In this document: positions 10,781-60,773 of the stretch, one piece after another
Numbering within the stretch: the stretch's first letter is position 1
Layout: each line of letters starts with the position of its first letter
Assembly (NCBI GenBank): GCA_963662155.1
Contig: OY759270.1
Span: 11,110,926-11,174,925 of the forward strand
Length of the DNA: 64,000 nt
Source of the DNA: Lamellibrachia columna
Taxonomy: Eukaryota > Annelida > Polychaeta > Sabellida > Siboglinidae
Direction of reading: 5' to 3'
Notes under the pieces: model-generated
Seen by the model: only the letters and a program-made list of their open reading frames with translations
What the model was told of the DNA's origin: nothing
Database searches by the model: none
Program-made: the position numbers and the translations under genes

Positions 10781-10904
10781 TTGGGACTGGGGGGCTTAGG
10801 TTGCTGGTGGGGATAAAGCCTACATAAAATTCCTGGCATTGGTCATTCCGTACTCAGGGAACCCAAATGGAAGATGTGACACTTATTTACACTTGGGGCC
10901 AATT

Positions 10905-14185: not shown

Positions 14186-14565
14186 CTGCAACATCAAATA
14201 GCAATGTGAGACGAGTTGTTCTTCAGAGGAATGTACAACGATTTTCATTGGTTAACAAAACTGCTGTTTTATGAGACATCGTAACATTGAATTAATTAGT
14301 ATTGATAGCATATCGGTAGGTTACAAACTTTTAATATACGATGGCCGAGAAGGTTCATCGCTGTTGTGTGCTGAATTATGCAACACGATGGACCGATGCC
14401 CGATTCGATGCGCTATGTGATAAAGCGATGTGATGGTCATCCCGTTGTTAATTTAATACATATCTAAATTTATCGTATTTCACTTTTTTTTATTTGAAAA
14501 TATTTATTATGTACGCCTGTACTCTTCAGCCACGATGGCTGCAAAGTGAATTAAACTTATTTTTT
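14186..14565. other. Unique acceptor-proximal part of the giant intron
   Basis: About 380 bp of AT-rich, non-satellite DNA between the satellite edge and the TM4-exon acceptor. It probably represents what is left of the pre-expansion intron. No gene or repeat seen. Confidence 0.6.
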
Positions 14566-17500
14566 TACGGCACGTACCGACCCTAGACAAGGCTTTGTAT
14601 TGATGTAAACTAGGTGATTCATACACATGGTGGAGCCAAGTGACGGGAAACCTAGACTACCGCACATACCGACTTCAGACAAGGCTTTGTGTTGACGTAG
14701 ACTAGGTGATTCATACACATGGTGGAGCCAAGTGACGGGAAACCTGGACTACCGCACATACCGACTTTAGACAAGGCTTTGTGTTGATGTAGACTAGGTG
14801 ATTAATACACATGGTGGAGCCAAGTGAGGGGAAACCTAGACTACTGCACATACCGACTTTAGACAAGGCTTTGTGTTGACGTAGACTAGGTGATTCATAC
14901 ACATGGTGGAGCCAAGTGACGGGAAACCTAGACTACCGCACATACCGACTTTAGACAAGGCTTTGTGTTGATGTAGACTAGGTGATTAATACACATGGTG
15001 GAGCCAAGTGACGGGAAACCTAGACTACTGCACATACCGACTTTAGACAAGGCTTTGTGTTGATGTAGACTAGGTGATTCATACACATGGTGGAGCCAAG
15101 TGACGGGAAACCTAGACTACCGCACATACCGACTTTAGACAAGGCTTTGTGTTGATGTAGACTAGGTGATTAATACACATGGTGGAGCCAAGTGACGGGA
15201 AACCTAGACTACTGCACATACCGACTTTAGACAAGGCTTTGTGTTGACGTAGACTAGGTGATTCATACACATGGTGGAGCTAAATGACGGGAAACCTAGA
15301 CTACCGCACATACCGACTTCAGACAAGGCTTTGTGTTGATGTAGACTAGGTGATTCATACACATGGTGGAGCCAAGTGACGGGAAACCTAGACTACAGCA
15401 CATACCGACTTTAGACAAGGCTTTGTGTTGATGTAGACTAGGTGATTCATACACATGGTGGAGCCAAGTGACGGGAAACCTAGACTACCGCACATACCGA
15501 CCCTAGACAAGGCTTTGTATTGATGTAGACTAGATGATTCATACACATGGTGGAGCCAAGTGACGGGAAACCTAGACTACCGCACATATCGACTTTAGAC
15601 AAGGCTTTGTGTTGATGTAGACTAGGTGATTCATACACATGGTGGAGCCAAGTGACGGGAAACCTAGAGTACTGCACATACCGACTTTAGACAAGGCTTT
15701 GTGTTGACGTAGACTAGGTGATTCATACACATGGTGGAGCCAAGTGACGGGAAACCTAGGCTACTGCACATATCGACTTTAGACAAGGCTTTGTGTTGAT
15801 GTAGACTAGGTGATTCATACACATGGTGGAGCCAAGTGACGGGAAACCTAGACTACCGCACATACCGACTTAGACAAGGCTTTGTGTTGATGTAGACTAG
15901 GTGATTCATACACATGGTGGAGCCAAGTGACGGGAAACCTAGACTACTGCACATACCGACTTTAGACGCTTTGTGTTGACGTAGACTAGGTGATTCATAC
16001 ACATGGTGGAGCCAAGTGACGGGAAACCTAGACTACCGCACATACCGACTTTAGACAAGGCTTTGTGTTGATGTAGACTAGTTGATTCATACACATGGTG
16101 GAGCCAAGTGACGGGAAGACTACCGCACATACCGACTTTAGACAAGGCTTTGTGTTGATGTAGACTAGGTGATTCATACACATGGTGGAGCCAAGTGACG
16201 GGAAACCTAGACTACCGCACATACCGACTTTAGACAAGGCTATGTGTTGATGTAGACTAGGTGATTCATACACATGGTGGAGCCAAGTGACGGGAAACCT
16301 AGACTACCGCACATACCGACTTCAGACAAGGCTTTGTGTTGACGTAGACTAGGTGATTCATACACGTGGTGGAGCCAAGTGACGGGAAACCTAGACTACC
16401 GCACATACCGACTTCAGACAAGGCTTTGTGTTGACGTAGACTAGGTGATTCATACACATGGTGGAGCCAAGTGACGGGAAACCTAGACTACCGCACATAC
16501 CGACTTTAGACAAGGCTTTGTGTTGATGTAGACTAGGTGATTCATAAACATGGTGGAGCCAAGTGACGGGAAACCTAGACTACCGCACATACCGACTTCA
16601 GACAAGGCTTTGTGTTGACGTAGACTAGGTGAATCATACACATGGTGGAGCCAAGTGACGGGAAACCTAGACTACCGCACATACCGACTTTAGACAAGGC
16701 TTTGTGTTGATGTAGACTAGGTGATTCATACACGTGGTGGAGCCAAGTGACGGGAAACCTAGACTACCGCACATACCGACTTTAGACAAGGCTTTGTGTT
16801 GATGTAGACTAGGTGATTCATACACATGGTGGAGCCAAGTGACGGGAAACCTAGACTACCGCACATACCGACTTCAGACAAAGCTTTGTGTTGATGTAGA
16901 CTAGGTGATTCATACACATGGTGGAGCCAAGTGACGGGAAACCTAGACTACCGCACATACCGACTTTAGACAAGGCTTTGTGTTGACGTAGACTAGGCGA
17001 TTCATACACATGGTGGAGCCAAGTGACGGGAATCCTAGACTACCGCGTATACCGACCCTAGACAAGGCTTTGTATTGATGTAGACTAGGTGATTCATACA
17101 CATGGTGGAGCCAAGTGACGGGAAACCTAGACGACCGCACATACCGACCCTAGACAAGGCTTTGTATTGATGTAGACTAGGTAATTCATACACATGGTGG
17201 AGCCAAGTGACGGGAAACCTAGACTACCGCACATACCGACTTTAGACATGGCTTTGTGTTGACGTAGACTAGGTGATTCATACACATGGTGGAGCCAAGT
17301 GACGGGAAACCTAGACTACCGCACATACCGACTTTAGACAAGGCTTTGTGTTGATATAGACTAGGTGATTCATAAACATGGTGGAGCCAAGTGAAGGGAA
17401 ACCTAGACTACCGCACATACCGACTTCAGACAAGGCTTTGTGTTGATGTAGACTAGGTGATTCATACACATGGTGGAGCCAAGTGACGGGAAACCTAGAC

Positions 17501-20500
17501 TACCGCACATACCGACTTCAGACAAGGCTTTGTGTTGACGTAGACTAGGTGATTCATACACATGGTGGAGCCAAGTGACGGGAAACCTAGACTACCGCAC
17601 ATACCGACTTTAGACATGGCTTTGTGTTGACGTAGACTAGGTGATTCATACACATGGTGGAGCCAAGTGACGGGAAACCTAGACTACCGCACATACCGAC
17701 TTTAGACAAGGCTTTGTGTTGATGTAGACTAGGTGATTCATAAACATGGTGGAGCCAAGTGACGGGAAACCTAGACTACCGCACATACCGACTTCAGACA
17801 AGGCTTTGTGTTGATGTAGACTAGGTGATTCATACACATGGTGGAGCCAAGTGACGGGAAACCTAGACTACCGCACATACCGACTTCAGACAAGGCTTTG
17901 TGTTGACGTAGACTAGGTGATTCATACACATGGTGGAGCCAAGTGACGGGAAACCTAGACTACCGCACATACCGACTTTAGACATGGCTTTGTGTTGACG
18001 TAGACTAGGTGATTCATACACATGGTGGAGCCAAGTGACGGGAAACCTAGACTACCGCACATACCGACTTTAGACAAGGCTTTGTGTTGATGTAGACTAG
18101 GTGATTCATAAACATGGTGGAGCCAAGTGACGGGAAACCTAGACTACCGCACATACCGACTTCAGACAAGGCTTTGTGTTGATGTAGACTAGGTGATTCA
18201 TAAACATGGTGGAGCCAAGTGACGGGAAACGTAGACTACCGCACATACCGACTTCAGACAAGGCTTTGTGTTGATGTAGACTAGGTGATTCATACTCATG
18301 GTGGAGTCAAGTGACGGGAAACCTAGACTACCGCACATACCGACTTCAGACAAGGCTTTGTGTTGACGTAGACTAGGTGATTCATACACATGGTGGAGCC
18401 AAATGACGGGAAACCTAGAGTACTGCACATACCGACTTTAAACAAGGCTTTGTGTTGACGTAGACTAGGTGATTCATACACATGGTGGAGCCAAGTGACG
18501 GGAAACCTAGGCTACTGCACATATCGACTTTAGACAAGGGTTTGTGTTGATGTAGACTAGGTGATTCATACACATGGTGGAGCCAAGTGACGGGAAACCT
18601 AGACTACCGCACATACCGACTTTAGACAAGGCTTTGTGTTGATGTAGACTAGGTGATTCATACACATGGTGGAGCCAAGTGACGGGAAACTTAGACTACT
18701 GCACATACCGACTTTAGACAAGGCTTTGTGTTGACGTAGACTAGGTGATTCATACACATGGTGGAGCCAAGTGACGGGAAACCTAGACTACCGCACATAC
18801 CGACTTTAGACAAGGCTTTGTGTTGATGTAGACTAGTTGATTCATACACATGGTGGAGCCAAGTGACGGGAAACCTAGAATACCGCACATACCGACTTTA
18901 GACAAGGCTTTGTGTTGATGTAGACTAGGTGATTCATACACATGGTGGCGCCAAGTGACGGGAAACCTAGACTACTGCACATATCGACTTTAGACAAGGC
19001 TTTGTGTTGATGTAGACTAGGTGATTCATACACATGGTGGAGCCAAGTGACGGGAAACCTAGACTACCGCACATACCGACTTTAGACAAAGCTTTGTGTT
19101 GATGTAGACTAGGTGATTCATACACATGGTGGAGCCAAGTGACGGGAAACCTAGACTACTGCACATACCGACTTTAGACAAGGCTTTGTGTTGACGTAGA
19201 CTAGGTGATTCATACACATGGTGGAGCCAAGTGACGGGAAACCTAGACTACCGCACATACCGACTTTAGACAAGGCTTTGTGTTGATGTAGACTAGGTGA
19301 TTCATACACATGGTGGAGCCAAGTGACGGGAAACCTAGCCTACCGCACATACCGACTTTAGACAAGGCTTTGTGTTGATGTAGACTAGGTGATTCATACA
19401 CCTGGTGGAGCCAAGTGACGGGAAACGTAGACTACTGCACATATCGACTTTAGACAAGGATTTGTGTTGATGTAGACTAGGTGATTCATACACATGGTGG
19501 AGCCAAGTGACGGGAAACCTAGACTACCGCACATACCGACTTTAGACAAGGCTTTTTTGTTGATGTAGACTAGGTGATTCATACAAATGGTGGTGCCAAG
19601 TGACGGGAAACCTAGACTACCGCACATACCGACTTTAGACAAGGCTTTGTGTTGATGTAGACTAGGTGATTCATACACATGGTGGAGCTAAATGACGGGA
19701 AACCTAGACTACCGCACATACCGACTTCAGACAAGGCTATGTGTTGATGTAGACTAGGTGATTCATACACATGGTGGAGCCAAGTGACGGGAAACCTAGA
19801 CTACCGCACATACCGACTTTAGACAAGGCTTTGTGTTGATGTAGACTAGGTGATTCATACACATGGTGGAGCCAAGTGACGGGAAACCTAGACTACTGCA
19901 CATACCGACTTTAGACAAGGCTTTGTGTTGACGTAGACTAGGTGATTCATACACATGGTGGAGCCAAGTGACGGGAAACCTAGACTACCGCACATACCGA
20001 CTTTAGACAAGGCTTTGTGTTGATGTAGACTAGTTGATTCATACACATGGTGGAGCCAAGTGACGGGAAACCTAGAATACCGCACATACCGACTTTAGAC
20101 AAGGCTTTGTGTTGATGTAGACTAGGTGATTCATACACATGGTGGCGCCAAGTGACGGGAAACCTAGACTACTGCACATATCGACTTTAGACAAGGCTTT
20201 GTGTTGATGTAGACTAGGTGATTCATACACATGGTGGAGCCAAGTGACGGGAAACCTAGACTACCGCACATACCGACTTTAGACAAAGCTTTGTGTTGAT
20301 GTAGACTAGGTGATTCATACACATGGTGGAGCCAAGTGACGGGAAACCTAGACTACTGCACATACCGACTTTAGACAAGGCTTTGTGTTGACGTAGACTA
20401 GGTGATTCATACACATGGTGGAGCCAAGTGACGGGAAACCTAGACTACCGCACATACCGACTTTAGACAAGGCTTTGTGTTGATGTAGACTAGGTGATTC

Positions 20501-23500
20501 ATACACATGGTGGAGCCAAGTGACGGGAAACCTAGCCTACCGCACATACCGACTTTAGACAAGGCTTTGTGTTGATGTAGACTAGGTGATTCATACACCT
20601 GGTGGAGCCAAGTGACGGGAAACGTAGACTACTGCACATATCGACTTTAGACAAGGATTTGTGTTGATGTAGACTAGGTGATTCATACACATGGTGGAGC
20701 CAAGTGACGGGAAACCTAGACTACCGCACATACCGACTTTAGACAAGGCTTTTTTGTTGATGTAGACTAGGTGATTCATACAAATGGTGGAGCCAAGTGA
20801 CGGGAAACCTAGACTACCGCACATACCGACTTTAGACAAGGCTTTGTGTTGATGTAGACTAGGTGATTCATACACATGGTGGAGCTAAATGACGGGAAAC
20901 CTAGACTACCGCACATACCGACTTCAGACAAGGCTATGTGTTGATGTAGACTAGGTGATTCATACACATGGTGGAGCCAAGTGACGGGAAACCTAGACTA
21001 CCGCACATACCGACTTTAGACAAGGCTTTGTGTTGATGTAGACTAGGTGATTCATACACATGGTGGAGCCAAGTGACGGGAAACCTAGACTACTGCACAT
21101 ACCGACTTTAGACAAGGCTTTGTGTTGACGTAGACTAGGTGATTCATACACATGGTGGAGCCAAGTGACGGGAAACCTAGACTACCGCACATACCGACTT
21201 TAGACAAGGCTTTGTGTTGATGTAGACTAGGTGATTCATACACATGGTGGAGCCAAGTGACGGGAAACCTAGACTACCGCACATACCGACTTTAGACAAG
21301 GCTATGTGTTGATGTAGACTAGGTGATTCATACACATGGTGGAGCCAAGTGACGGGAAACCTAGACTACCGCACATACCGACTTCAGACAAGGCTTTGTG
21401 TTGACGTAGACTAGGTGATTCATACACGTGGTGGAGCCAAGTGACGGGAAACCTAGACTACCGCACATACCGACTTCAGACAAGGCTTTGTGTTGACGTA
21501 GACTAGGTGATTCATACACATGGTGGAGCCAAGTGACGGGAAACCTAGACTACCGCACATACCGACTTTAGACAAGGCTTTGTGTTGATGTAGACTAGGT
21601 GATTCATAAACATGGTGGAGCCAAGTGACGGGAAACCTAGACTACCGCACATACCGACTTCAGACAAGGCTTTGTGTTGATGTAGACTAGGTGATTCATA
21701 CACATGGTGGAGCCAAGTGACGGGAAACCTAGACTACCGCACATACCGACTTCAGACAAGGCTTTGTGTTGATGTAGACTAGGTGATTCTTACATATGGT
21801 GGAGCCAATTGACGGGAAACCTAGACTACCGCACATACCGACTTTAGACAAGGCTTTGTGTTGACGTAGACTAGGTGATTCATACACGTGGTGGAGCCAA
21901 GTGACGGGAAACCTAGACTACCGCACATACCGACTTTAGACAAGGCTATGTGTTGATGTAGACTAGGTGATTCATACACATGGTGGAGCCAAGTGACGGG
22001 AAACCTAGACTACCGCACATACCGACTTTAGACAAGGCTTTGTGTTGACGTAGACTAGGCGATTCATACACATGGTGGAGCCAAGTGACGGGAATCCTAG
22101 ACTACCGCGCATACCGACCCTAGACAAGGCTTTGTATTGATGTAGACTAGGTGATTCATACACATGGTGGAGCCAAGTGACGGGAAACCTAGACGACCGC
22201 ACATACCGACCCTAGACAAGGCTTTGTATTGATGTAGACTAGGTGATTCATACACATGGTGGAGCCAAGTGACGGGAAACCTAGACTACCGCACATACCG
22301 ACTTTAGACATGGCTTTGTGTTGACGCAGACTAGGTGATTCATACACATGGTGGAGCCAAGTGACGGGAAACCTAGACTACCGCACATACCGACTTTAGA
22401 CAAGGCTTTGTGTTGATGTAGACTAGGTGATTCATAAACATGGTGGAGCCAAGTGACGGGAAACCTAGACTACCGCACATACCGACTTCAGACAAGGCTT
22501 TGTGTTGATGTAGACTAGGTGATTCATACACATGGTGGATCCAAGTGAAGGGAAACCTAGACTACCGCACATACCGACTTCAGACAAGGCTTTGTGTTGA
22601 CGTAGACTAGGTGATTCATACACATGGTGGAGCCAAGTGACGGGAAACCTAGACTACCGCACATACCGACTTTAGACATGGCTTTGTGTTGACGTAGACT
22701 AGGTGATTCATACACATGGTGGAGCCAAGTGACGGGAAACCTAGACTACCGCACATTCCGACTTTAGACAAGGCTTTGTGTTGATGTAGACTAGGTGATT
22801 CATAAACATGGTGGAGCCAAGTGACGGGAAACCTAGACTACCGCACATACCGACTTCAGACAAGGCTTTGTGTTGATGTAGACTAGGTGATTCATACACA
22901 TGGTGGAGTCAAGTGACGGGAAACCTAGACTACCGCACATATCGACTTTAGACAAGGCTTTGTATTGATGTAGACTAGGTGATTCATACACATGGTGGAG
23001 CCAAGTGATGGGATACCTAGACTACCGCACATACCGACTTCAGACGAGGCTTTGTGTTGACGTAGACTAGGTGATTCATACACATGGTGGAGCCAAGTGA
23101 CGGGAAACTTAGACTACCGCACATACCGACTTCAGACAAGGCTTTGTGTTGACGTAGACTAGGTGATTCATACACATGGTGGAGCCAAATGACGGGAAAC
23201 CTAGAGTACTGCACATACCGACTTTAGACAAGGCTTTGTGTTGACGTAGACTAGGTGATTCATACACATGGTGGAGCCAAGTGACGGGAAACCTAGGCTA
23301 CTGCACATATCGACTTTAGACAAGGCTTTGTGTTGAAGTAGACTAGGTGATTCATACACATGGTGGAGCCAAGTGACGGGAAACCTAGACTACCGCACAT
23401 ACCGACTTTAGACATGGCTTTGTGTTGATGTAGACTAGGTGATTCATACACATGGTGGAGCCAAGTGACGGGAAACCTAGACTACTGCACATACCAACTT

Positions 23501-24313
23501 TAGACAAGGCTTTGTGTTGACGTAGACTAGGTGATTCATACACATGGTGGAGCCAAGTGACGGGAAACCTAGACTACCGCACATACCGACTTTAGACAAG
23601 GCTTTGTGTTGATGTAGACTAGTTGATTCATACACATGGTGGAGCCAAGTGACGGGAAACCTAGACTACCGCACATACCGACTTCAGACAAGGCTTTGTA
23701 TTGATGTAGACTAGGTGATTCATACACATGGTGGAGCCAAGTGACGGGAAACCTAGACTACCGCACATACCGATTTTAGACAAGGCTTTGTGTTGATGTA
23801 GACTAGGTGATTCATACACATGGTGGAGTCAAGTGACGGGAAACCTAGACTACCGCACATACCGACTTTAGACAAGGCTTTGTGTTGACGTAGACTAGGT
23901 GATTCATACACGTGGTGGAGCCAAGTGACGGGAAACCTAGACTACCGCACATACCGACTTTAGACAAGGCTTTGTGTTGACGTAGACTAGGTGATTCATA
24001 CACATGGTGGAGCCAAGTGACGGGAAACCTAGACTACCGCACATACCGACTTTAGACAAGGCTTGGTATTGATGTAGACTAGGTGATTCATACACATGGT
24101 GGAGCCAAGTGACGGGAAACCTAGACTACCGCACATACCGACTTCAGACAAGGCTTTGTGTTGATGTAGACTAGGTGATTCATACACATGGTGGAGCCAA
24201 GTGACGGGAAACCTAGACTACCGCACATACCGACTTCAGACAAGGCTTTGTGTTGATGTAGACTAGGTGATTCATACACATGGTGGAGCCAAGTGACGGG
24301 AAACCTAGACTAC
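14566..24313 (-). repeat. 92-bp exon-boundary satellite, segment 1
   Basis: About 106 tandem monomers, head to tail. On the minus strand the monomer is 31 nt matching the end of the tetraspanin loop exon (CTACATCAACACAAAGCC, then TTGTCTRAAGTCG), followed by GTATGT and 55 more nt ending AATCACCTAGT. The array edge at 14566 is a partial, diverged copy (donor GTACGT) that breaks into unique intron after about 15 bp. Period 92 is not divisible by 3, and one frame has TAG soon after the donor, so no long protein is encoded. Variants such as GGTCGG/TGTATTG (14.57, 15.5, 17.05 kb) and CATAAACATGG recur at irregular multiples of 92. Confidence 0.93.
18550..20944. repeat. Tandem block duplication of 1,197 bp (13 monomers)
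   Basis: Private variants recur exactly 1,197 bp apart: the TTAGAATACCGC monomer (18,878 and 20,075), GGTGGCGCCAAG, ACCTGGTGGAG, the GGCTTTTTTGTTG 1-bp insertion (19,550 and 20,747) and GGAGCTAAATGACG. 1,197 is 13 x 92 plus that inserted base. The copies differ at very few sites, so the duplication is recent. Confidence 0.85.
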
Positions 24314-25240
24314 TGAATGTGCATCCTGCCATCTGTCACTGGACTCTCAACTTTCTTCTTCACAGGCCTCAATCTGTCAAGGTCAAAAACTCTCTCTCCA
24401 AACCTGTTATTCTTAACACTGGTGCCCCACAAGGCTGCGTGCTTTCTCCTTTCCTTTTCACTCTCTTTACAAACGACTGTGTATCTGTTAACCAATCTGT
24501 TCGCGTGGTTAAGTTCTCGGATGACACCACTGTAATTGGCTGTGTCAACAATGCTAACGAGTCTGTGTATAGAGAGGAAGTTCAAAGACTGGTCGGCTGG
24601 TGTAAGAACAACAACCTGGTACTAAACATATCCAAAACGAAGGAAATGATCATTGATTTTCGCAAAAAGAAAACACCCATCCACCCCCTTGTCATTGACG
24701 GTACTGAAGTTTTACAAGCCGACTCTGTAACATTTTTGGGTTCGACTATTTCTAAAGATCTTTCCTGGTGTAATAACACGATTGGCATCATTAAAAAAGC
24801 ACAAAAACGCATGTACTTCCTTAGACACCTCAAACGATTCGGCTTATCTCAAGCAATATTAACACGTTTCTACCGCGCAGTTATTGAAAGTGTCTTGTCA
24901 TTTTCTATCACTGTCTGGTTTGGTCGCGCCAGCCAAGATGAAATTAATCAAATTGAATCAGTCGTCAAGTACGCCTCTAAACTAATCGGGTTAAATATGC
25001 CGTCCATCAGATCTCTTTATCTATCTCGCAGTTTGCGCAAATCCAAGCGCATTGTACAAGACGAATATCATCCAGCCAACCATCTCTTTGAACTCCTTCC
25101 CTCCGGTAAGCGCTACCGTAGCATAAAAACTAAAACGACGCGATTTAACAATAGTTTCTATCCTCAAGCGCTGAGATTTTTAAACGGAGAGCCATCATAA
25201 ATGTCTAGCCTCTAGTAGGTAGATGCAATGTCGCCTTTTT

Positions 25241-25273
<33 letters not shown>

Positions 25274-25463
25274 CTTGCAACCTATTATATTACTCTCGCT
25301 TGTTTTCAACTGTTTTTAGTATTACGATTGTGATATGTAATGTTTAGTTCCGTGTGTGATTGGGTGCATGAGTGTATGTTTGTGCTAACGCCACAACACT
25401 ACAAATTCCTTGTACTTGCTACTTGGTAATAAAACGTATCTTATCTTATCTTATCTTATCTTA
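24314..25463 (+). mobile_element. L2-type LINE fragment, copy 1 (5'-truncated)
   Basis: Inserted in the satellite on the plus strand, antisense to the tetraspanin gene. The open frame (24280-25200, 306 codons) borrows its ATG and first 12 residues from a satellite monomer. The LINE part begins inside the RT domain: 'GAPQGCVLSP' (residues 48-57), catalytic FSDD (79-82), 'NISKTKEMIIDFR', 'VTFLGSTIS', 'AQKRMYFLR', 'FYRAVIESVL', and a C-terminal 'LLPSGKRYRSIKTKTTRF', the typical L2/CR1-group end. The endonuclease and RT fingers are missing, so it cannot be autonomous. A 28-nt T run lies in the 3' UTR, and the element ends AATAAAACG followed by (TATCT)n, like the short microsatellite tails of L2 elements. 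At the target about 7 bp of monomer is missing and no target duplication is seen. Confidence 0.88.
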
Positions 25464-28400
25464 TACCGACTTTAGACAAGGCTTTGTGTTGATGTAGACT
25501 AGGTGATTCATACACATGGTGGAGCCAAGTGACGGGAAACCTAGACTACCGCACATACCGACTTCAGACAAGGCTTTGTGTTGATGTAGACTAGGTGATT
25601 CTTACATATGGTGGAGCCAATTGACGGGAAACCTAGACTACCGCACATACCGACTTTAGACAAGGCTTTGTGTTGACGTAGACTAGGTGATTCATACACG
25701 TGGTGGAGCCAAGTGACAGGAAACCTAGACTACCGCACATACCGACTTTAGACAAGGCTATGTGTTGATGTAGACTAGGTGATTCATACACATGGTGGAG
25801 CCAAGTGACGGGAAACCTAGACTACCGCACATACCGACTTTAGACAAGGCTTTGTGTTGATGTAGACTAGGTGATTCATAAACATGGTGGAGCCAAGTGA
25901 CGGGAAACCTAGACTACCGCACATACCGACTTCAGACAAGGCTTTGTGTTGATGTAGACTAGGTGATTCATACACATGGTGGAGCCAAGTGACGGGAAAC
26001 CTAGACTACCGCACATACCGACTTCAGACAAGGCTTTGTGTTGATGTAGACTAGGTGATTCTTACATATGGTGGAGCCAATTGACGGGAAACCTAGACTA
26101 CCGCACATACCGACTTTAGACAAGGCTTTGTGTTGACGTAGACTAGGTGATTCATACACGTGGTGGAGCCAAGTGACGGGAAACCTAGACTACCGCACAT
26201 ACCGACTTTAGACAAGGCTATGTGTTGATGTAGACTAGGTGATTCATACACATGGTGGAGCCAAGTGACGGGAAACCTAGACTACCGCACATACCGACTT
26301 TAGACAAGGCTTTGTGTTGACGTAGACTAGGCGATTCATACACATGGTGGAGCCAAGTGACGGGAATCCTAGACTACCGCGCATACCGACCCTAGACAAG
26401 GCTTTGTATTGATGTAGACTAGGTGATTCATACACATGGTGGAGCCAAGTGACGGGAAACCTAGACGACCGCACATACCGACCCTAGACAAGGCTTTGTA
26501 TTGATGTAGACTAGGTGATTCATACACATGGTGGAGCCAAGTGACGGGAAACCTAGACTACCGCACATACCGACTTTAGACATGGCTTTGTGTTGACGCA
26601 GACTAGGTGATTCATACACATGGTGGAGCCAAGTGACGGGAAACCTAGACTACCGCACATACCGACTTTAGACAAGGCTTTGTGTTGATGTAGACTAGGT
26701 GATTCATAAACATGGTGGAGCCAAGTGACGGGAAACCTAGACTACCGCACATACCGACTTCAGACAAGGCTTTGTGTTGATGTAGACTAGGTGATTCATA
26801 CACATGGTGGAGCCAAGTGAAGGGAAACCTAGACTACCGCACATACCGACTTCAGACAAGGCTTTGTGTTGACGTAGACTAGGTGATTCATACACATGGT
26901 GGAGCCAAGTGACGGGAAACCTAGACTACCGCACATACCGACTTTGGACATGGCTTTGTGTTGACGTAGACTAGGTGATTCATACACATGGTGGAGCCAA
27001 GTGACGGGAAACCTAGACTACCGCACATTCCGACTTTAGACAAGGCTTTGTGTTGATGTAGACTAGGTGATTCATAAACATGGTGGAGCCAAGTGACGGG
27101 AAACCTAGACTACCGCACATACCGACTTCAGACAAGGCTTTGTGTTGATGTAGACTAGGTGATTCATACACATGGTGGAGTCAAGTGACGGGAAACCTAG
27201 ACTACCGCACATATCGACTTTAGACAAGGCTTTGTATTGATGTAGACTAGGTGATTCATACACATGGTGGAGCCAAGTGATGGGATACCTAGACTACCGC
27301 ACATACCGACTTCAGACGAGGCTTTGTGTTGACGTAGACTAGGTGATTCATACACATGGTGGAGCCAAGTGACGGGAAACTTAGACTACCGCACATACCG
27401 ACTTCAGACAAGGCTTTGTGTTGACGTAGACTAGGTGATTCATACACATGGTGGAGCCAAATGACGGGAAACCTAGAGTACTGCACATACCGACTTTAGA
27501 CAAGGCTTTGTGTTGACGTAGACTAGGTGATTCATACACATGGTGGAGCCAAGTGACGGGAAACCTAGGCTACTGCACATATCGACTTTAGACAAGGCTT
27601 TGTGTTGAAGTAGACTAGGTGATTCATACACATGGTGGAGCCAAGTGACGGGAAACCTAGACTACCGCACATACCGACTTTAGACATGGCTTTGTGTTGA
27701 TGTAGACTAGGTGATTCATACACATGGTGGAGCCAAGTGACGGGAAACCTAGACTACTGCACATACCAACTTTAGACAAGGCTTTGTGTTGACGTAGACT
27801 AGGTGATTCATACACATGGTGGAGCCAAGTGACGGGAAACCTAGACTACCGCACATACCGACTTTAGACAAGGCTTTGTGTTGATGTAGACTAGTTGATT
27901 CATACACATGGTGGAGCCAAGTGACGGGAAACCTAGACTACCGCACATACCGACTTCAGACAAGGCTTTGTATTGATGTAGACTAGGTGATTCATACACA
28001 TGGTGGAGCCAAGTGACGGGAAACCTAGACTACCGCACATACCGATTTTAGACAAGGCTTTGTGTTGATGTAGACTAGGTGATTCATACACATGGTGGAG
28101 TCAAGTGACGGGAAACCTAGACTACCGCACATACCGACTTTAGACAAGGCTTTGTGTTGACGTAGACTAGGTGATTCATACACGTGGTGGAGCCAAGTGA
28201 CGGGAAACCTAGACTACCGCACATACCGACTTTAGACAAGGCTTTGTGTTGACGTAGACTAGGTGATTCATACACATGGTGGAGCCAAGTGACGGGAAAC
28301 CTAGACTACCGCACATACCGACTTTAGACAAGGCTTGGTATTGATGTAGACTAGGTGATTCATACACATGGTGGAGCCAAGTGACGGGAAACCTAGACTA

Positions 28401-28585
28401 CCGCACATACCGACTTCAGACAAGGCTTTGTGTTGATGTAGACTAGGTGATTCATACACATGGTGGAGCCAAGTGACGGGAAACCTAGACTACCGCACAT
28501 ACCGACTTCAGACAAGGCTTTGTGTTGATGTAGACTAGGTGATTCATACACATGGTGGAGCCAAGTGACGGGAAACCTAGACTAC
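25464..28585 (-). repeat. 92-bp exon-boundary satellite, segment 2
   Basis: About 34 monomers between LINE copies 1 and 2. From about 25.77 kb on, it repeats the 21.5-24.3 kb stretch with a 4,272-bp offset, including private variants (CTTACATATGG/CCAATTGAC, GGCGATTC, GATGGGATACC, TTGAAGTAG). A local 460-bp (5-monomer) repeat of the CTTACATATGG type lies at 25,601 and 26,061. Confidence 0.93.
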
Positions 28586-29512
28586 TGAATGTGCATCCTG
28601 CCATCTGTCACTGGACTCTCAACTTTCTTCTTCACAGGCCTCAATCTGTCAAGGTCAAAAACTCTCTCTCCAAACCTGTTATTCTTAACACTGGTGCCCC
28701 ACAAGGCTGCGTGCTTTCTCCTTTCCTTTTCACTCTCTTTACAAACGACTGTGTATCTGTTAACCAATCTGTTCGCGTGGTTAAGTTCTCGGATGACACC
28801 ACTGTAATTGGCTGTGTCAACAATGCTAACGAGTCTGTGTATAGAGAGGAAGTTCAAAGACTGGTCGGCTGGTGTAAGAACAACAACCTGGTACTAAACA
28901 TATCCAAAACGAAGGAAATGATCATTGATTTTCGCAAAAAGAAAACACCCATCCACCCCCTTGTCATTGACGGTACTGAAGTTTTACAAGCCGACTCTGT
29001 AACATTTTTGGGTTCGACTATTTCTAAAGATCTTTCCTGGTGTAATAACACGATTGGCATCATTAAAAAAGCACAAAAACGCATGTACTTCCTTAGACAC
29101 CTCAAACGATTCGGCTTATCTCAAGCAATATTAACACGTTTCTACCGCGCAGTTATTGAAAGTGTCTTGTCATTTTCTATCACTGTCTGGTTTGGTCGCG
29201 CCAGCCAAGATGAAATTAATCAAATTGAATCAGTCGTCAAGTACGCCTCTAAACTAATCGGGTTAAATATGCCGTCCATCAGATCTCTTTATCTATCTCG
29301 CAGTTTGCGCAAATCCAAGCGCATTGTACAAGACGAATATCATCCAGCCAACCATCTCTTTGAACTCCTTCCCTCCGGTAAGCGCTACCGTAGCATAAAA
29401 ACTAAAACGACGCGATTTAACAATAGTTTCTATCCTCAAGCGCTGAGATTTTTAAACGGAGAGCCATCATAAATGTCTTGCCTCTAGTAGGTAGATGCAA
29501 TGTCGCCTTTTT

Positions 29513-29545
<33 letters not shown>

Positions 29546-29735
29546 CTTGCAACCTATTATATTACTCTCGCTTGTTTTCAACTGTTTTTAGTATTACGAT
29601 TGTGATATGTAATGTTTAGTTCCGTGTGTGATTGGGTGCATGAGTGTATGTTTGTGCTAACGCCACAACACTACAAATTCCTTGTACTTGCTACTTGGTA
29701 ATAAAACGTATCTTATCTTATCTTATCTTATCTTA
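28586..29735 (+). mobile_element. L2-type LINE fragment, copy 2
   Basis: Almost identical to copy 1, offset 4,272 bp, with the same 5' truncation point, the same junctions with the satellite and an intact 306-codon chimeric frame (28552-29472). It differs in the 3' UTR at one base after the stop (GTCTTGCC instead of GTCTAGCC). Shared junctions show it arose by block duplication of array plus insert, not by a new insertion. Confidence 0.9.
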
Positions 29736-30925
29736 TACCGACTTTAGACAAGGCTTTGTGTTGATGTAGACTAGGTGATTCATACACATGGTGGAGCCAA
29801 GTGACGGGAAACCTAGACTACCGCACATACCGACTTCAGACAAGGCTTTGTGTTGACGTAGACTAGGTGATTCATACACATGGTGGAGCCAAGTGACGGG
29901 AAACCTAGGCTACTGCACATATCGACTTTAGACAAGGCTTTGTGTTGAAGTAGACTAGGTGATTCATACACATGGTGGAGCCAAGTGACGGGAAACCTAG
30001 ACTACCGCACATACCGACTTTAGACATGGCTTTGTGTTGATGTAGACTAGGTGATTCATACACATGGTGGAGCCAAGTGACGGGAAACCTAGACTACTGC
30101 ACATACCAACTTTAGACAAGGCTTTGTGTTGACGTAGACTAGGTGATTCATACACATGGTGGAGCCAAGTGACGGGAAACCTAGACTACCGCACATACCG
30201 ACTTTAGACAAGGCTTTGTGTTGATGTAGACTAGTTGATTCATACACATGGTGGAGCCAAGTGACGGGAAACCTAGACTACCGCACATACCGACTTCAGA
30301 CAAGGCTTTGTATTGATGTAGACTAGGTGATTCATACACATGGTGGAGCCAAGTGACGGGAAACCTAGACTACCGCACATACCGATTTTAGACAAGGCTT
30401 TGTGTTGATGTAGACTAGGTGATTCATACACATGGTGGAGTCAAGTGACGGGAAACCTAGACTACCGCACATACCGACTTTAGACAAGGCTTTGTGTTGA
30501 CGTAGACTAGGTGATTCATACACGTGGTGGAGCCAAGTGACGGGAAACCTAGACTACCGCACATACCGACTTTAGACAAGGCTTTGTGTTGACGTAGACT
30601 AGGTGATTCATACACATGGTGGAGCCAAGTGACGGGAAACCTAGACTACCGCACATACCGACTTTAGACAAGGCTTGGTATTGATGTAGACTAGGTGATT
30701 CATACACATGGTGGAGCCAAGTGACGGGAAACCTAGACTACCGCACATACCGACTTCAGACAAGGCTTTGTGTTGATGTAGACTAGGTGATTCATACACA
30801 TGGTGGAGCCAAGTGACGGGAAACCTAGACTACCGCACATACCGACTTCAGACAAGGCTTTGTGTTGATGTAGACTAGGTGATTCATACACATGGTGGAG
30901 CCAAGTGACGGGAAACCTAGACTAC
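29736..30925 (-). repeat. 92-bp exon-boundary satellite, segment 3
   Basis: About 13 monomers between LINE copies 2 and 3. After about 29,850 it repeats 27.5-28.6 kb with an offset of 2,340 bp (for example the GGCTACTGCACATATCG then TTGAAGTAG pair at 27,569 and 29,909). Confidence 0.93.
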
Positions 30926-31852
30926 TGAATGTGCATCCTGCCATCTGTCACTGGACTCTCAACTTTCTTCTTCACAGGCCTCAATCTGTCAAGGTCAAAA
31001 ACTCTCTCTCCAAACCTGTTATTCTTAACACTGGTGCCCCACAAGGCTGCGTGCTTTCTCCTTTCCTTTTCACTCTCTTTACAAACGACTGTGTATCTGT
31101 TAACCAATCTGTTCGCGTGGTTAAGTTCTCGGATGACACCACTGTAATTGGCTGTGTCAACAATGCTAACGAGTCTGTGTATAGAGAGGAAGTTCAAAGA
31201 CTGGTCGGCTGGTGTAAGAACAACAACCTGGTACTAAACATATCCAAAACGAAGGAAATGATCATTGATTTTCGCAAAAAGAAAACACCCATCCACCCCC
31301 TTGTCATTGACGGTACTGAAGTTTTACAAGCCGACTCTGTAACATTTTTGGGTTCGACTATTTCTAAAGATCTTTCCTGGTGTAATAACACGATTGGCAT
31401 CATTAAAAAAGCACAAAAACGCATGTACTTCCTTAGACACCTCAAACGATTCGGCTTATCTCAAGCAATATTAACACGTTTCTACCGCGCAGTTATTGAA
31501 AGTGTCTTGTCATTTTCTATCACTGTCTGGTTTGGTCGCGCCAGCCAAGATGAAATTAATCAAATTGAATCAGTCGTCAAGTACGCCTCTAAACTAATCG
31601 GGTTAAATATGCCGTCCATCAGATCTCTTTATCTATCTCGCAGTTTGCGCAAATCCAAGCGCATTGTACAAGACGAATATCATCCAGCCAACCATCTCTT
31701 TGAACTCCTTCCCTCCGGTAAGCGCTACCGTAGCATAAAAACTAAAACGACGCGATTTAACAATAGTTTCTATCCTCAAGCGATGAGATTTTTAAACGGA
31801 GAGCCATCATAAATGTCTTGCCTCTAGTAGGTAGATGCAATGTCGCCTTTTT

Positions 31853-31886
<34 letters not shown>

Positions 31887-32076
31887 CTTGCAACCTATTA
31901 TATTACTCTCGCTTGTTTTCAACTGTTTTTAGTATTACGATTGTGATATGTAATGTTTAGTTCCGTGTGTGATTGGGTGCATGAGTGTATGTTTGTGCTA
32001 ACGCCACAACACTACAAATTCCTTGTACTTGCTACTTGGTAATAAAACGTATCTTATCTTATCTTATCTTATCTTA
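30926..32076 (+). mobile_element. L2-type LINE fragment, copy 3
   Basis: Third near-identical copy, offset 2,340 bp from copy 2. The 306-codon frame (30892-31812) is intact, with one Leu-to-Met change near the C-terminus (CTG to ATG). The T run is 29 nt. It shares the GTCTTGCC variant with copy 2, so its body derives from that lineage. Its right flank instead matches the right flank of copy 1, including a private GACAGG variant (25,712 and 32,330), which indicates recombination between copies. Confidence 0.9.
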
Positions 32077-53700: not shown

Positions 53701-56700
53701 TTCACACAAGGCTTTGTGTTGATGTAGTCTAGGTGATTCATACACATGGTGGAGCCAAGTGACGGGAAACCTAGACTTCCGCACATATCGAACCTAGACA
53801 AGGCTTTGTATTGATATAGACTAAGTGATTTATACACATGGTGGAGCCAAGTGACGGGAAACCTAGACTACCACACATACCGACTTTAGACAAGGCTTTG
53901 AGTTGATGTAGACTAGGTGATTCATACACATGGTGGAGCCAAGTGACGGGAAACCTAGACTACCGCACATACCGACCCTAGACAAGGCTTTGTATTGATG
54001 TAGACTAGGTGATTCATACACATGGTGGAGCCAAGTGACGGGAAACCTAGACTACCGCACATACCGACTTTAGACAAGGCTTTGTGTTGACGTAGACTAG
54101 GTGATTCATACTCATGGAGGAGCCAAGTGACGGGAAACCTAGACTACCGCACATACCGACTTTAGACAAGGCTTTGTGTTGATGTAGACTAGGTGATTCA
54201 TACTCATGGTGGAGTCAAGTGAATGGAAACCTAGACTACCGCACATACCGACTTTAGACAAGGCTTTGTGTTGAAGTAGACTAGGTGATTCATACTCGTG
54301 GTGGAGCCAAGTGACGGGAAACCTAGACTACCGCACATACCGACTTCAGACAAGGCTTTGTGTTGATGTAGACTAGGTGATTCATACTCATGGAGGAGCC
54401 AAGTGACGGGAAACCTAGACTACCGCACATACCGACTTTAGACAAGGCTTTGTGTTGATGTAGACTAGGTGATTCATACACATGGTGGAGCCAAGTGACG
54501 GGAAACCTAGACTACCGCACATACCGACTTTAGACAAGGCTTTGTGTTGATGTAGACTAGGTGATTCATACACATGGTGGAGCCAAGTGACGGGAAACCT
54601 AGACTACCGCACATACCGACTTCAGACAAGGCTTTGTGTTGATGTAGACTAGGTGATTCATACACATGGTAGAGCCAAGTGACGGGAAACCTAGACTTCC
54701 GCACATACCGACCCTAGACAAGGCTTTGTATTGATGTAGACTAGGTGATTCATACACATGGTGGAGCCAAGTGACGGGAAACCTAGACTACCGCACATAC
54801 CGACTTTAGACAAGACTTTGTGTTGATGTAGACTAGGTGATTCATACACATGGTGGAGCCAAGTGACGGGAAACCTAGACTACCGCACATACCGACTTCA
54901 GACAAGGCTTTGTGTTGACGTAGACTAGGTGATTCTTACACGTGGTGGAGCCAAGTGACGGGAATCCTAGACTACCGCACATATCGACTTTAGACAAGGC
55001 TTTGTGTTGATGTAGACTAGGTGATTCATACACGTGGTGGAGCCAAGTGACGGGAAACCTAGACTACCGCACATTCCGACTTCAGACAAGGCTTTGTGTT
55101 GATGTAGACTAGGTGATTCATAAACATGGTGGAGCCAAGTGAGGGGAAACCTAGTCTACCGCACATACCGAATTTAGACAAGGCTTTGTGTTGACGTAGA
55201 CTAGGTGATTCATACACGTGGTGGAGCCAAGTGACGGGAAACCTAGACTACCGCACTTACTGACTTCACACAAGGCTTTGTGTTGATGTAGTCTAGGTGA
55301 TTCATACACATGGTGGAGCCAAGTGACGGGAAACCTAGACTTCCGCACATATCGAACCTAGACAAGGCTTTGTATTAATATAGACTAGGTGATTTATACA
55401 CATGGTGGAGCCAAGTGACGGGAAACCTAGACTACCACACATACCGACTTTAGACAAGGCTTTGAGTTGATGTAGACTAGGTGATTCATACACATGGTGG
55501 AGCCAAGTGACGGGAAACCTAGACTACCGCACATACCGACCCTAGACAAAGCTTTGTATTGATGTAGACTAGGTGATTCATACACATGGTGGAGCCAAGT
55601 GACGGGAAACCTAGACTACCGCACATACCGACTTTAGACAAGGCTTTGTGTTGACGTAGACTAGGTGATTCATACTCATGGAGGAGCCAAGTGACGGGAA
55701 ACCTAGACTACCGCACATACCGACTTTAGACAAGGCTTTGTGTTGAAGTAGACTAGGTGATTCATACTCGTGGTGGAGCCAAATGACGGGAAACCTAGAC
55801 TACCGCACATACCGACTTCAGACAAGGCTTTGTGTTGATGTAGACTAGGTGATTCATACTCATGGAGGAGCCAAGTGACGGGAAACCTAGACTACCGCAC
55901 ATACCGACTTTAGACAAGGCTTTGTGTTGATGTAGACTAGGTGATTCATACACATGGTGGAGCCAAGTGACGGGAAACCTAGACTACCGCACATACCGAC
56001 TTTAGACAAGGCTTTGTGTTGATGTAGACTAGGTGATTCATACACATGGTGGAGCCAAGTGACGCGAAACCTAGACTACCGCACATACCGACTTCAGACA
56101 AGGCTTTGTGTTGATGTAGACTAGGTGATTCATACACATGGTGGAGCCAAGTGACGGGAAACCTAGACTACCGCACATACCGACTTTAGACCAGGCTTTT
56201 TGTTGACGTAGACTAGGTGATTCATACAAATGGTGGAGCCAAGTGACGGGAAACCTAGACTACCGCACATACCGACTTTAGACAAGGCTTTGTGTTGATG
56301 TAGACTAGGTGATTCATACACATGGTAGAGCCAAGTGACGGGAAACCTAGACTTCCGCACATACCGATCCTAGACAAGGCTTTGTATTGATGTAGACTAG
56401 GTGATTCATACACATGGTGGAGCCAAGTGACGGGAAACCTAGACTACCGCACATACCGACTTTAGACAAGACTTTGTGTTGATGTAGACTAGGTGATTCA
56501 TACACATGGTGGAGCCAAGTGACGGGAAACCTAGACTACCGCACATACCGACTTCAGACAAGGCTTTGTGTTGACGTAGACTAGGTGATTCATACACGTG
56601 GTGGAGCCAAGTGACGGGAATCCTAGACTACCGCACATATCGACTTTAGACAAGGCTTTGTGTTGATGTAGACTAGGTGATTCATACACGTGGTGGAGCC

Positions 56701-57700
56701 AAGTGACGGGAAACCTAGACTTCCGCACATAACGACTTCAGACAAGGCTTTTTGTTGATGTAGACTAGGTGATTCATACACATGGTGGAGCCAAGTGACG
56801 GGAAACCTAGTCTACCGCACATACAGACTTTAGACAAGGCTTTGTGTTGACGTAGACTAGGTGATTCATACACGTTGTGGAGCCAAGTGACGGGAAACCT
56901 AGACTACCGCACATACCGACTTTAGACAAGGCTTTGTGTTGATGTAGACTAGGTGATTCATACACATGGTGGAGCCAAGTGACGGGTAACCTAGACTACC
57001 GCACATACCGACTTTAGACAAGGCTTTGTGTTGATGTAGACTAGGTGATTCATACACATGGTGGAACCAAGTGACGGGAAACCTAGACTACCGCCCATAC
57101 CGACTTCAGACAAGGCTTTTTGTTGATGTAGACTAGGTGATTCATACACATGGTGGAGCCAAGTGACGGGAAACCTAGTCCACCGCACATACAGACTTTA
57201 GACAAGGCTTTGTGTTGACGTAGACTAGGTGATTCATACACGTGGTGGAGCCAAGTGACGGGAAACCTAGACTACCGCACATACCGACTTTAGACAAGGT
57301 TTTGTGTTGACGTAGACTAGGTGATTCATACACGTGGTGGAGCCAAGTGACGGGAAACCTAGACTACCGCACATTCCGACTTCAGACAAGGCTTTGTGTT
57401 GATGTAGACTAGGTGATTCATAAACATGGTGGAGCCAAGTGACGGGAAACCTAGTCTACCGCACATACCGAATTTAGACAAGGCTTTGTGTTGACGTAGA
57501 CTAGGTGATTCATACACGTGGTGGAGCCAAGTGACGGGAAACCTAGACTACCGCACATACCGACTTCACACAAGGCTTTGTGTTGATGTAGTCTAGGTGA
57601 TTCATACACATGGTGGAGCCAAGTGACGGGAAACCTAGACTTCCGCACATATCGAACCTAGACAAGGCTTTGTATTGATATAGACTAGGTGATTTATACA
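50735..57700. repeat. Long-range block repeat, offset 5,428 bp (59 monomers)
   Basis: Ordered sets of variant monomers at about 50.7-52.3 kb reappear at 56.2-57.7 kb with a 5,428-bp offset. An example is the GGGTAACC then GGAACC then TTTTTGTTG then GTCCACCGC order starting near 51,558 and 56,986. The two blocks are separated by other higher-order units, so this is not simple tandem duplication. Confidence 0.7.
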
Positions 57701-58589
57701 CATGGTGGAGCCAAGTGACGGGAAACCTAGACTACCACACATACCGACTTTAGACAAGGCTTTGTGTTGATGTAGACTAGGTGATTTATACACGTGGTGG
57801 AGCCAAGTGACGGGAAACCTAGACTACAGCACATACCGACTTTAGACAAGGCTTTGTGTTGATGTAGACTAGGTGATTCATACACATGGTGGAGCCAAGT
57901 GACGGGAAACCTAGACTACCGCACATACCGACTTTAGACAAGGCTTTGTGTTGATGTAGACTAGGTGATTCATACACATGGTGGAGCCAAGAGACGGGTA
58001 ACATAGACTACCGCACATACCGACTTTAGACAAGGCTTTGTGTTGATGTAGACTAGGTGATTCATACACATGGTGGAGCCAAGTGACGGGTAACATAGAC
58101 TACCGCACATACCGACTTCAGACAAGGCTTTGTGTTGACGTAGACTAGGTGATTCATACACATGGTGGAGCCAAGTGACGGGTAACATAGACTACCGCAC
58201 AAACCGACTTTAGACAAGGCTTTGTGTTGATGTAGACTAGGTGATTCATACACATGGTGGAGCCAAGTGACGGGAAACCTAGACTACCGCACATACCGAC
58301 TTCAGACAAGGCTTTTTGTTGATGTAGACTAGGTGATTCGTACATGTGGTGGAGCCAAGTGACGGGAAACCTAGACTACCGCACATACCGACTTAAGACA
58401 AGGCTTTGTGTTGATGTAGACTATGTGATTCATACACGTGGTGGAGCCAAGTGGCGGGAAACCTAGACTACCGCACATACCGACTTTAGACAAGGCTTTG
58501 TGTTGATGTAGACTAGGTGATTCATACACGTGGTGGAACCAAGTGACGGGAAACCTAGACTACCGCACATACCGACTTTAGACAAGGCT

Positions 58590-58970
58590 TTGTGTTGATG
58601 TAGACTATGTGATTCATACACGTGGTGGAGCCAAGTGACGGGAAACCTAGACTACCGCACATACCGACTTTAGACAAGGCTTTGTGTTGATGTAGACTAT
58701 GTGATTCATACACGTGGTGGAGCCAAGTGACGGGAAACCTAGACTACCGCACATACCGACTTTAGACAAGGCTTTGTGTTGATGTAGACTATGTGATTCA
58801 TACACGTGGTGGAGCCAAGTGACGGGAAACCTAGACTACCGCACATACCGACTTTAGACAAGGCTTTGTGTTGATGTAGACTATGTGATTCATACACGTG
58901 GTGGAGCCAAGTGACGGGAAACCTAGACTACCGCACATACCGACTTTAGACAAGGCTTTGTGTTGATGTA
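58590..58970. repeat. Run of four locally homogenised monomers
   Basis: Four consecutive monomers carry the same CTATGTGATTCATACACGTGG variant with no other differences, a single-monomer expansion near the exon end of the array. Confidence 0.75.
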
Positions 58971-60504
58971 GACTAGGTGATTCATACACGTGGTGGAGCC
59001 AAGTGACGGGAAACCTAGACTACCGCACATACCGACTTTAGACAAGGCTTTGTGTTGACGTAGACTAGGTGATTCATACACATGGTGGAGCCAAGTGACG
59101 GGAAACCTTGACTACCGCACATTCCGACTTTAGACAAGGCTTTGTGTTGACGTAGACTAGGTGATTCATACACATGGTGGAGCCAAATGACGGGAAACCT
59201 AGACTACCGCACATACCGACTTTAGACAAGGCTTTGTGTTGATGTAGACTAGGAGATTTATACACATGGTGGAGCCAAGTGACGGGAAACCTAGACTACT
59301 GCACATATCGACTTTAGACAAGGCTTTGTATTGATGTAGACTAGTTGATTCATACACGTGGTGGAGCCAAGTGACGGGAAACCTAGACTACCGCACATAC
59401 CGACTTTAGACAAGGCTTTTTGTTGATGTAGACTAGGTGATTCATACACGTGGTGGAGCCAAGTGACGGGAAACCTAGACTACCGCACATACCGACTTTA
59501 GACAAGGCTTTGTGTTGATGTAGACTAGGTGATTCATACACGTTGTGGAGGCAAGTGACGGGAAACCTAGACTTCCGCACATACCGACTTTAGACAAGGC
59601 TTTGTGTTGATGTAGAGTAGGTTATTCATACTCATGGTGAAGCCAAGTGACGGGAAACCTAGACTTCCGCACACACCGACTTTAGACAAGGCTTTGTGTT
59701 GATGTAGACTAGGTGATTCATACACATGGTGGAGCCAAGTGACGGGAAACCTAGACTACCGCACATACCGACTTCAGACAAGGCTTTTTGTTGATGTAGA
59801 CTAGGTGATTCATACACGTGGTGGAGCCAAGTGACGGGAAACCTAGACTACCGCACATACCGTCTTTAGACAAAGCTTTGTGTTGATGTAGACTAGGTGA
59901 TTCATACACGTGGTGGAGCCATGTGACGGGAAACCTAGACTACCGCACATACCGACTTTAGACAAGGCTTAGTGTTGATGTAGACTAGGTGATTCATACA
60001 CGTGGTGGAGCCATGTGACGGGAAACCTAGACTACCGCACATACCGACTTTAGACAAGGCTTTGTGTTGATGTAGACTAGGTGATTCATATACGTGGTGG
60101 AGCCAAGTGACGGGAAACCTAGACTACCGCACATACCGACTTTAGACAAGGCTTTGTGTTGATGTAGACTAGGTGATTCATACACGTGGTGGAGCCAAGT
60201 GACGGGAAACCTAGACTACCGCACATTCCGACTTCAGACAAGGCTTTGTGTTGATGTAGACTAGGTGATTCATACACATGGTGGAGCCAAGTGACGGGAA
60301 ACCTAGACTACCGCACATACCGACTTTAGACAAGGCTTTGTGTTGACGTAGACTAGGTGATTTATACACATGGTGGAGCCAAGTGACGGGAAACCTAGAC
60401 TACCGCACATACCGACTTTAGACAAGGCTTTGTGTTGACGTAGACTAGGTGATTCATACACATGGTGGAGCCAAGTGACGGGAAACCTAGACTACCGCAC
60501 ATAC

Positions 60505-60736
60505 CGACTTCAGACAAGGCTTTGTGTTGATGTAGCGCTCGTCTCCATGCTTCATACACTTGCCGAGGTTCACGAACTTCACGTTGCCCATGTCGTGAGG
60601 GTAGGCCCAATATTTCTCCACCTTACAGCACACAAGCGGTACGTGGGCTCGCACGATGGTGTCACGGAAAAAGAGGGCCCGGTTCCAGCGCGTCGCGTTC
60701 TTTGCGAAGTCCGTGTGGCTGGTGACCCCGCAGCAC
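60505..60736 (-). CDS. Tetraspanin, exon for the Cys-rich part of the large extracellular loop
   Basis: The acceptor ATATGGCAG ends at 60737. The first base completes the Glu codon split with the upstream exon, and 77 codons follow. It opens with the tetraspanin signature CCG, then an N-glycosylation sequon (NAT), 'VPLVCC', a fifth cysteine ('GKC') and a sixth in the last codons ('KPCLKS'), six in all as in many tetraspanin loops. The donor TCG|GTATGT at 60505/60504 is in phase 0 and joins the TM4 exon at 14185. The last 31 nt of this exon (60535-60505) are identical in kind to the satellite monomer, so the array starts inside the coding sequence. If this donor were skipped, translation would add V-C-A-V-V and stop, losing TM4. 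Confidence 0.82.
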
Positions 60737-60773
60737 CTGCCATATCCACCGACATATATTAATATTGTTGACG

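Follow-up and report, generated by a model that had tools for sequence, protein, structure and literature searches.

Introduction

Satellite-filled introns, tandem duplications that cross an exon/intron boundary, and satellites that derive from genes are each known, as described in the accessible parts of three reports (PMC6508621, PMC4974935, PMC4640811). For example, the Drosophila genes kl-3 and kl-5 carry gigantic introns filled with satellite DNA, according to the accessible text of PMC6508621. Here, we describe a tetraspanin gene of the siboglinid Lamellibrachia columna in which features of all three are combined. The stretch analyzed (‘the window’) is 64,000 nucleotides (nt) long and corresponds to positions 11,110,926–11,174,925 of contig OY759270.1 (assembly GCA_963662155.1), forward strand; coordinates below count from its first letter. 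The last intron of this minus-strand gene, from 60504 to 14186, is filled by a satellite whose 92-bp unit is the intron’s own 5′ boundary, i.e., 31 nt from the end of exon 3, followed by the GTATGT donor and 55 further intronic nt. We consider it probable that a tandem duplication over the last donor, in an ancestor shared with Lamellibrachia satsuma, founded the array, which then grew and was homogenized by unequal exchange.

Organization of the Gene and Its Last Intron

The following features make up the locus (LINE, long interspersed nuclear element; TM, transmembrane segment).

14566..60535, minus strand: 92-bp satellite array of 459 near-full monomers, ~42.5 kb without the LINE inserts
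60444..60535, minus strand: monomer 1, comprising the 31-nt exon end (60535–60505) and the first 61 intronic nt, with the GTATGT donor at 60504–60499
14566..14608, minus strand: distal partial monomer, ending 11–14 nt beyond the exon part
60505..60736, minus strand: exon 3, encoding the large loop (CCG, VCC, GKC, KPC), with CLKS at its end, phase 0
14186..14565, minus strand: leftover unique intron, 380 bp, with acceptor TTGCAG
13799..14185, minus strand: exon 4, encoding TM4, the tail, and the stop codon
62522..62829, minus strand: exon encoding TM2 and TM3, phase 2 at its end
63583..63747, minus strand: exon encoding TM1, the first coding exon within the window; the N-terminus lies outside

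Tandem Repeats Finder reported a single array at 14566–60535, with a period of 92 and a score of 68,952, far above chance. Cyclic alignment divided this array into 500 segments, and those with more than 80% identity to the consensus were counted as near-full monomers. The 41 segments excluded from the 459 monomers either overlap three LINE inserts (39) or are end fragments (2). Subtracting 3,448 bp of LINE from the 45,970 bp of array leaves 42.5 kb, which bears out the ~460 copies and ~42.5 kb given by an earlier, sequence-only reading of this DNA. The long head-to-tail arrangement, with a mean pairwise difference of 5.4% and 214 distinct monomers among the 459, is that of a satellite. The consensus monomer opens with the 31-nt exon end, CTACATCAACACAAAGCCTTGTCTAAAGTCG, from which the exon differs at one site by a synonymous A/G change; G is found in 133 of the 459 monomers, including the exon copy.

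The same reading had placed the exon end, the GTATGT donor, the phase-0 junction, the TM4 exon from 14185, and the 380-bp remainder of the intron where we also find them. Its description of the array needs some amendment: three LINE inserts interrupt the array, GT is kept in 404 of the 459 copies and the full GTATGT in 393, and the distal end is partial and diverged. This distal partial monomer carries a CTAGGG variant that is also present in 21 internal monomers. A half-unit repeat was considered and dismissed, as the Tandem Repeats Finder rows of period 45–47 had only ~50% matches.

The gene has four coding exons inside the window, all open, and a spliced product of 363 residues whose joined frame contains a single, terminal stop. 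The spliced protein matches the Pfam Tetraspanin family (PF00335) with E = 1.4e-24 over residues 2–270 (profile 8–224 of 225), covering the four membrane spans and the large loop, which places it in this family; the exon 3/exon 4 junction lies inside the match. A CCG motif and further loop cysteines are the hallmark of tetraspanins, and the large loop here contains CCG, VCC, GKC, and KPC, with the sixth loop cysteine encoded by the end of exon 3. The donor of the TM1 exon, AGG/GTGATT, was assigned from the reading frame and from the residues GYGRVVV in the L. satsuma protein described below. Recursive-splicing sites carry an AG/GT motif, and the exon 4 acceptor TTGCAG/GTGAGC (14186/14185) resembles one in layout, probably by coincidence with the codons for V and S.

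A Probable Path from Coding Sequence to Satellite

When solved structures were searched, the region across the exon 3/exon 4 junction aligned gap-free, albeit weakly (E = 0.056), to 8jj5 chain A, annotated as Tetraspanin. The residues YINTKPCLKS/VSSMIRDYT face YLFTKGCFEHIGHAIDSYT, with the shared pattern YxxTKxC...IxxYT, and the two halves of this alignment come from exons 46 kb apart. Chain D of 8jj5, which we take to be a uroplakin complex, is labelled UPK1B. Given the Pfam match across the junction and the gapless 8jj5 alignment, the 31 nt have the appearance of normal tetraspanin sequence, in keeping with the earlier claim that they are real coding sequence supplying the sixth loop cysteine, and splicing from the first donor would thus give an ordinary protein. 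Since the exon end is tetraspanin coding sequence, the gene is the most likely source of the repeat, and the direction was most likely from coding sequence to satellite rather than the reverse.

The proposed course of events would be as follows. In the ancestor shared with L. satsuma, a tandem duplication across the last donor, taking in 31 nt of exon and 61 nt of intron, would have given birth to the satellite in place, at this tetraspanin intron. The extra copy of the boundary would have been tolerated because it was wholly intronic and the first, exon-proximal donor still yielded the normal protein. Tandem copies would then have fed unequal exchange, including kb-scale tandem duplications, leading to growth, homogenization, and the 92-bp satellite that fills the intron today, with turnover still ongoing. 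The exon-bearing copy would belong to the same pool and exchange with the array, with selection on the protein presumably keeping it to a coding haplotype. The earlier proposal of simple serial duplication is not supported in that form: the array halts mid-monomer, its last copy resembles an internal sub-family, and kb-block duplication and array-wide exchange are indicated instead.

The Repeat in Lamellibrachia satsuma and Other Database Matches

A search of ~5.8 billion proteins with the spliced protein gave 2,291 candidates, of which a single one matched with E no higher than 10. This match, P0001, is hypothetical protein LSAT2_010837 of the tubeworm Lamellibrachia satsuma (Annelida, Siboglinidae). 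It is 93% identical in alignment, the BLASTP value of 71% reflecting an insertion, and the differences number 8 among 235 residues in exons 1–3 and 10 in the first 65 residues of exon 4. At the exon 3/exon 4 junction, P0001 reads YINTKPCLKS, followed by 57 residues that end in a second YINTKPCLKS, and then VSSMIRDY. The insert (residues 268–324) is the translation of 171 nt of satellite, with 54 of its 57 residues equal to a translation found here. A comparison of the exon end with relatives, proposed as a check in the sequence-only reading, thus returned an orthologue that has the exon end and the repeat too. The protein record indicates that L. satsuma shares the repeat at the same junction, so the sole relative found also bears it at this intron position. 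P0001 lies on a 37,867-bp contig, so in that assembly the array of L. satsuma is shorter than the one in L. columna.

Two of the three differences in the insert (H to R and M to V) are explained by an A to G change at monomer position 73, which falls in two successive L. satsuma monomers, whereas 457 of the 459 monomers here have A and two have T. This pattern is what would be expected of species-specific homogenization, as seen in two monomers read through a protein. For the time scale in these tubeworms, the split between Paraescarpia and L. luymesi is placed at 62.7 million years ago (31.6–113.7) in the accessible text of PMC8476170.

Protein searches with translations of the array found only P0002 (among 75 candidates) and P0001 (among nine). 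P0002 is a 51-residue protein from a 1,493,905-bp ENA contig, encoded by a sub-family of the array: 46 of 47 residues equal stretches found here near 55478, 53914, 50326, and 52350. The array does not account for its first four residues, for which a pattern search of the minus strand here gave no match. P0002 may come from another assembly of this array or from a different locus, or it may be a spliced prediction. Two exact array patterns had no matches in collections of prokaryote and virus contigs, which say little on this question.

Growth and Possible Homogenization of the Array

Within the array, the following inserts and blocks were delineated.

24315..25463, plus strand: LINE insert copy 1, with a reverse transcriptase domain and a TATCT-rich 3′ end
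28587..29735, plus strand: LINE insert copy 2
30927..32076, plus strand: LINE insert copy 3
21498..30041, no strand assigned: two adjoining 4,272-bp blocks, 99.65% identical, with one LINE copy each

The three LINE copies are 99.76–99.92% identical, flanks included. Side-by-side blocks of 4,272 bp (99.65%), 2,340 bp (99.9%), 1,197 bp (99.9%), and 1,104 bp (99.8%) were found, and the LINE sits in both the 4,272-bp and the 2,340-bp blocks at an identical monomer site, between GTA and TAAGATAAG. Because the same LINE occupies the same monomer place in both blocks, there was one LINE insertion, multiplied by two later duplications. Recent growth of the array was by kb-scale tandem duplication. An offset of 7,635 bp (95.5%) was not counted as a recent duplication, being near the background between random monomers (94.6%). 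In every LINE copy (24280–25200, plus strand, and its copies), a 306-residue open frame starts in the satellite and continues into the reverse transcriptase.

The difference between monomers is nearly independent of their distance, and identical pairs make up 1.7% of near pairs and ~0.65% of far ones. Of 171 site pairs, 48 show all four gametes. For positions 5 and 25, all four combinations are seen against a background that is otherwise identical, in 29, 16, 12, and 11 copies. The four-gamete pairs and the position 5/25 combinations are signs of exchange among monomers, although recurrent mutation could also have generated them. The data on homogenization consist of these site pairs and the kb-scale duplications within L. 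columna, and of the two L. satsuma monomers seen via their protein for the view between species.

The Exon Copy within the Monomer Pool

Monomer 1, the one with the exon end, has 15 exact matches over all 92 nt among the monomers between 54,647 and 21,777. Only two of the 214 haplotypes (41 of the 459 monomers) are more central than monomer 1, and none is when the 61 intronic nt are taken alone. Such centrality and identity would suit a founder, and would look the same in a copy that exchanges with the array. Array variants include I-to-V in about one-third of the copies and K-to-G in ~7%. It is conceivable, although we rather doubt it, that the exon end evolves in concert with the satellite by two-way conversion and unequal exchange and has done so since before the two species split. 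If true, the array would act as a lasting reservoir of variants available for transfer into the protein. Whether the concerted evolution of a satellite reaches into a coding exon is a question that this locus makes testable.

Donor Choice and Constraint on the Copies

Translation that continues from exon 3 meets a stop at codon six of the intron, and use of any later donor would include that stop. In exon definition, an acceptor pairs with the nearest donor. The acceptor at 60737 would accordingly be matched to the first donor, and the rest of the array would leave with the intron; …CTGAAGTCG at the end of exon 3 would be joined to GTGAGCTCA in exon 4. Most likely, the gene copes by first-donor splicing. 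The claim that the first donor is still used, made in the sequence-only reading, is upheld to the extent that the intronic stop codon implies it.

In the copies themselves, constraint was detectable neither on the donor nor on the exon part. Divergence from the consensus per site is 4.2% (median 1.7%) in the exon part, 2.4% in the donor, and 2.4% (median 1.1%) in the rest, and a comparison of the exon part with the rest of the intron part detected no constraint (P = 0.54). Distinct synonymous changes make up 14 of 20 possible ones and non-synonymous changes 34 of 70, a difference in the direction of a synonymous excess that does not reach significance (P = 0.13). Among 454 gap-free copies, 197 encode YINTKPCLKS and eight encode a variant with a stop in place of K (YINT-stop-PCLKS). 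A structure that could hide the donors was also sought: the fold of two monomers had z = −1.79 (RNA) and −1.81 (DNA), with 10 and 8 of 200 shuffles equally good, which is too weak a signal. Monomer positions 41–50, GTAGTCTAGG, and 87–92 plus 1–4, CCTAGTCTAC, could pair at nine of 10 positions, and CCTAGTCTAC spans the unit junction. No Rfam family matched within the window at gathering scores.

The L. satsuma model is probably a prediction artefact, because by eye no pyrimidine tract precedes the acceptor and no pressure to keep the copies coding is detectable. It serves as a warning for annotation, in that a gene model may have absorbed satellite into a protein. The locus also makes testable how splicing selects one donor among ~400 near-identical ones on a single transcript.

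Weighing the Alternatives

Several observations weigh against an origin in place by duplication over the donor. The distal edge of the array lies mid-monomer, and plain duplication of a 92-nt segment would give whole units; the original edge was therefore probably lost, most simply by deletion, and simple serial duplication would need a later rearrangement. When centrality is judged by the 31-nt exon part only, monomer 1 is surpassed by 172 of the 459 monomers, so its central position stems from its intronic part. The alignment of the junction to 8jj5 chain A is weak. Lastly, the L. satsuma model puts array sequence in the protein, contrary to splicing from the first donor to the TM4 exon if the model is real. 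That a satellite which arose elsewhere invaded the intron, with the exon end matching it through capture or conversion of the exon, would agree with the mid-monomer stop, as an inserted concatemer might end in this way, and with the four residues at the start of P0002, which may lie at another locus. We nevertheless regard invasion as unlikely: the exon end agrees with the tetraspanin family over the junction, L. satsuma has an identical one, and searches with array translations yielded only P0001 and P0002.

P0001 lends itself to a different reading, in which the array supplies cassette exons, with 171 nt of two monomers, bounded by the AG at monomer positions 43–44 and a GT donor, spliced in frame into the large loop. 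The record holds exactly such a 57-residue stretch, and 310 of 430 gap-free monomer triples here keep the AG, the GT, and an open frame. This is improbable, as the AG lacks a preceding pyrimidine tract by eye, coding constraint is not significant by either comparison given above, the exon part of eight copies contains a stop, and the insert would follow a conserved loop cysteine where 8jj5 chain A has none. It is very unlikely that the gene is decaying in L. columna and tolerates the array since its protein no longer matters. The greater divergence of exon 4 from L. satsuma, compared to exons 1–3, and a 46-kb intron full of decoy donors that could impair splicing would both be in line with decay, but the four exons are open, the joined frame stops only at its end, and no loop cysteine has been lost. 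Assemblers have difficulty with exact blocks, which here reach 2.5 kb, and the copy number could be wrong; that an assembler made the array or inflated its length is, in our view, extremely unlikely given the diversity of distinct monomers and the repeat at the same gene in another species’ record. Thus, a duplication over the donor in the shared ancestor remains the explanation we prefer.

Other Features of the Window

Just beyond the array (~14557–14490, minus strand), an acceptor-like sequence, TTTAATTCACTTTGCAG, is followed by AATAAA-type sequences, possibly an alternative last exon or a remnant. The preceding intron contains a perfect 45-bp tandem repeat of 2.1 copies (62005–62100) among inverted-repeat elements. 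A ~143-bp repeat family, with copies in both orientations that are 69–82% identical, occupies 8824–12282.

Comparison with Known Systems

The sequence-only reading knew of no satellite built on this scale by serial duplication of its own 5′ splice site. Judged by titles and the openings of abstracts in a single literature collection, we found no satellite made from the exon/donor boundary of its host gene, which is weak evidence. In that collection, there was likewise no precedent for the combination described here, namely a large satellite, shared by two tubeworm lineages, in which the first unit doubles as the working exon end and donor of the intron that houses it. The locus offers a traceable satellite birth, in which the likely founder would still be in place as coding sequence, available for comparison with each of the copies.

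As far as the accessible text of PMC6508621 goes, kl-3 and kl-5 are similar in that a functional protein-coding gene has an intron dominated by tandem satellite. Their introns contain megabases of simple repeats, whereas the intron here is not of that gigantic, simple-satellite type and holds 42.5 kb of a complex 92-bp unit taken from its own boundary. The event described in the accessible text of PMC4974935 is also a tandem duplication over an exon/intron boundary that copies splice signals. There, one acceptor-side duplication creates an intron, whereas here the donor side is repeated hundreds of times within an existing intron; AG/GT pairs occur in the 310 of 430 triples mentioned above, and one such pair is used in the L. 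satsuma model. U2_sat of sea squirts, in the portion of PMC4640811 available, likewise has a monomer that comes from a functional gene, that of U2 small nuclear RNA. Its source is a small RNA gene, whereas the satellite of L. columna is made from a protein-coding splice boundary that is still the first unit of the array, in its own gene.

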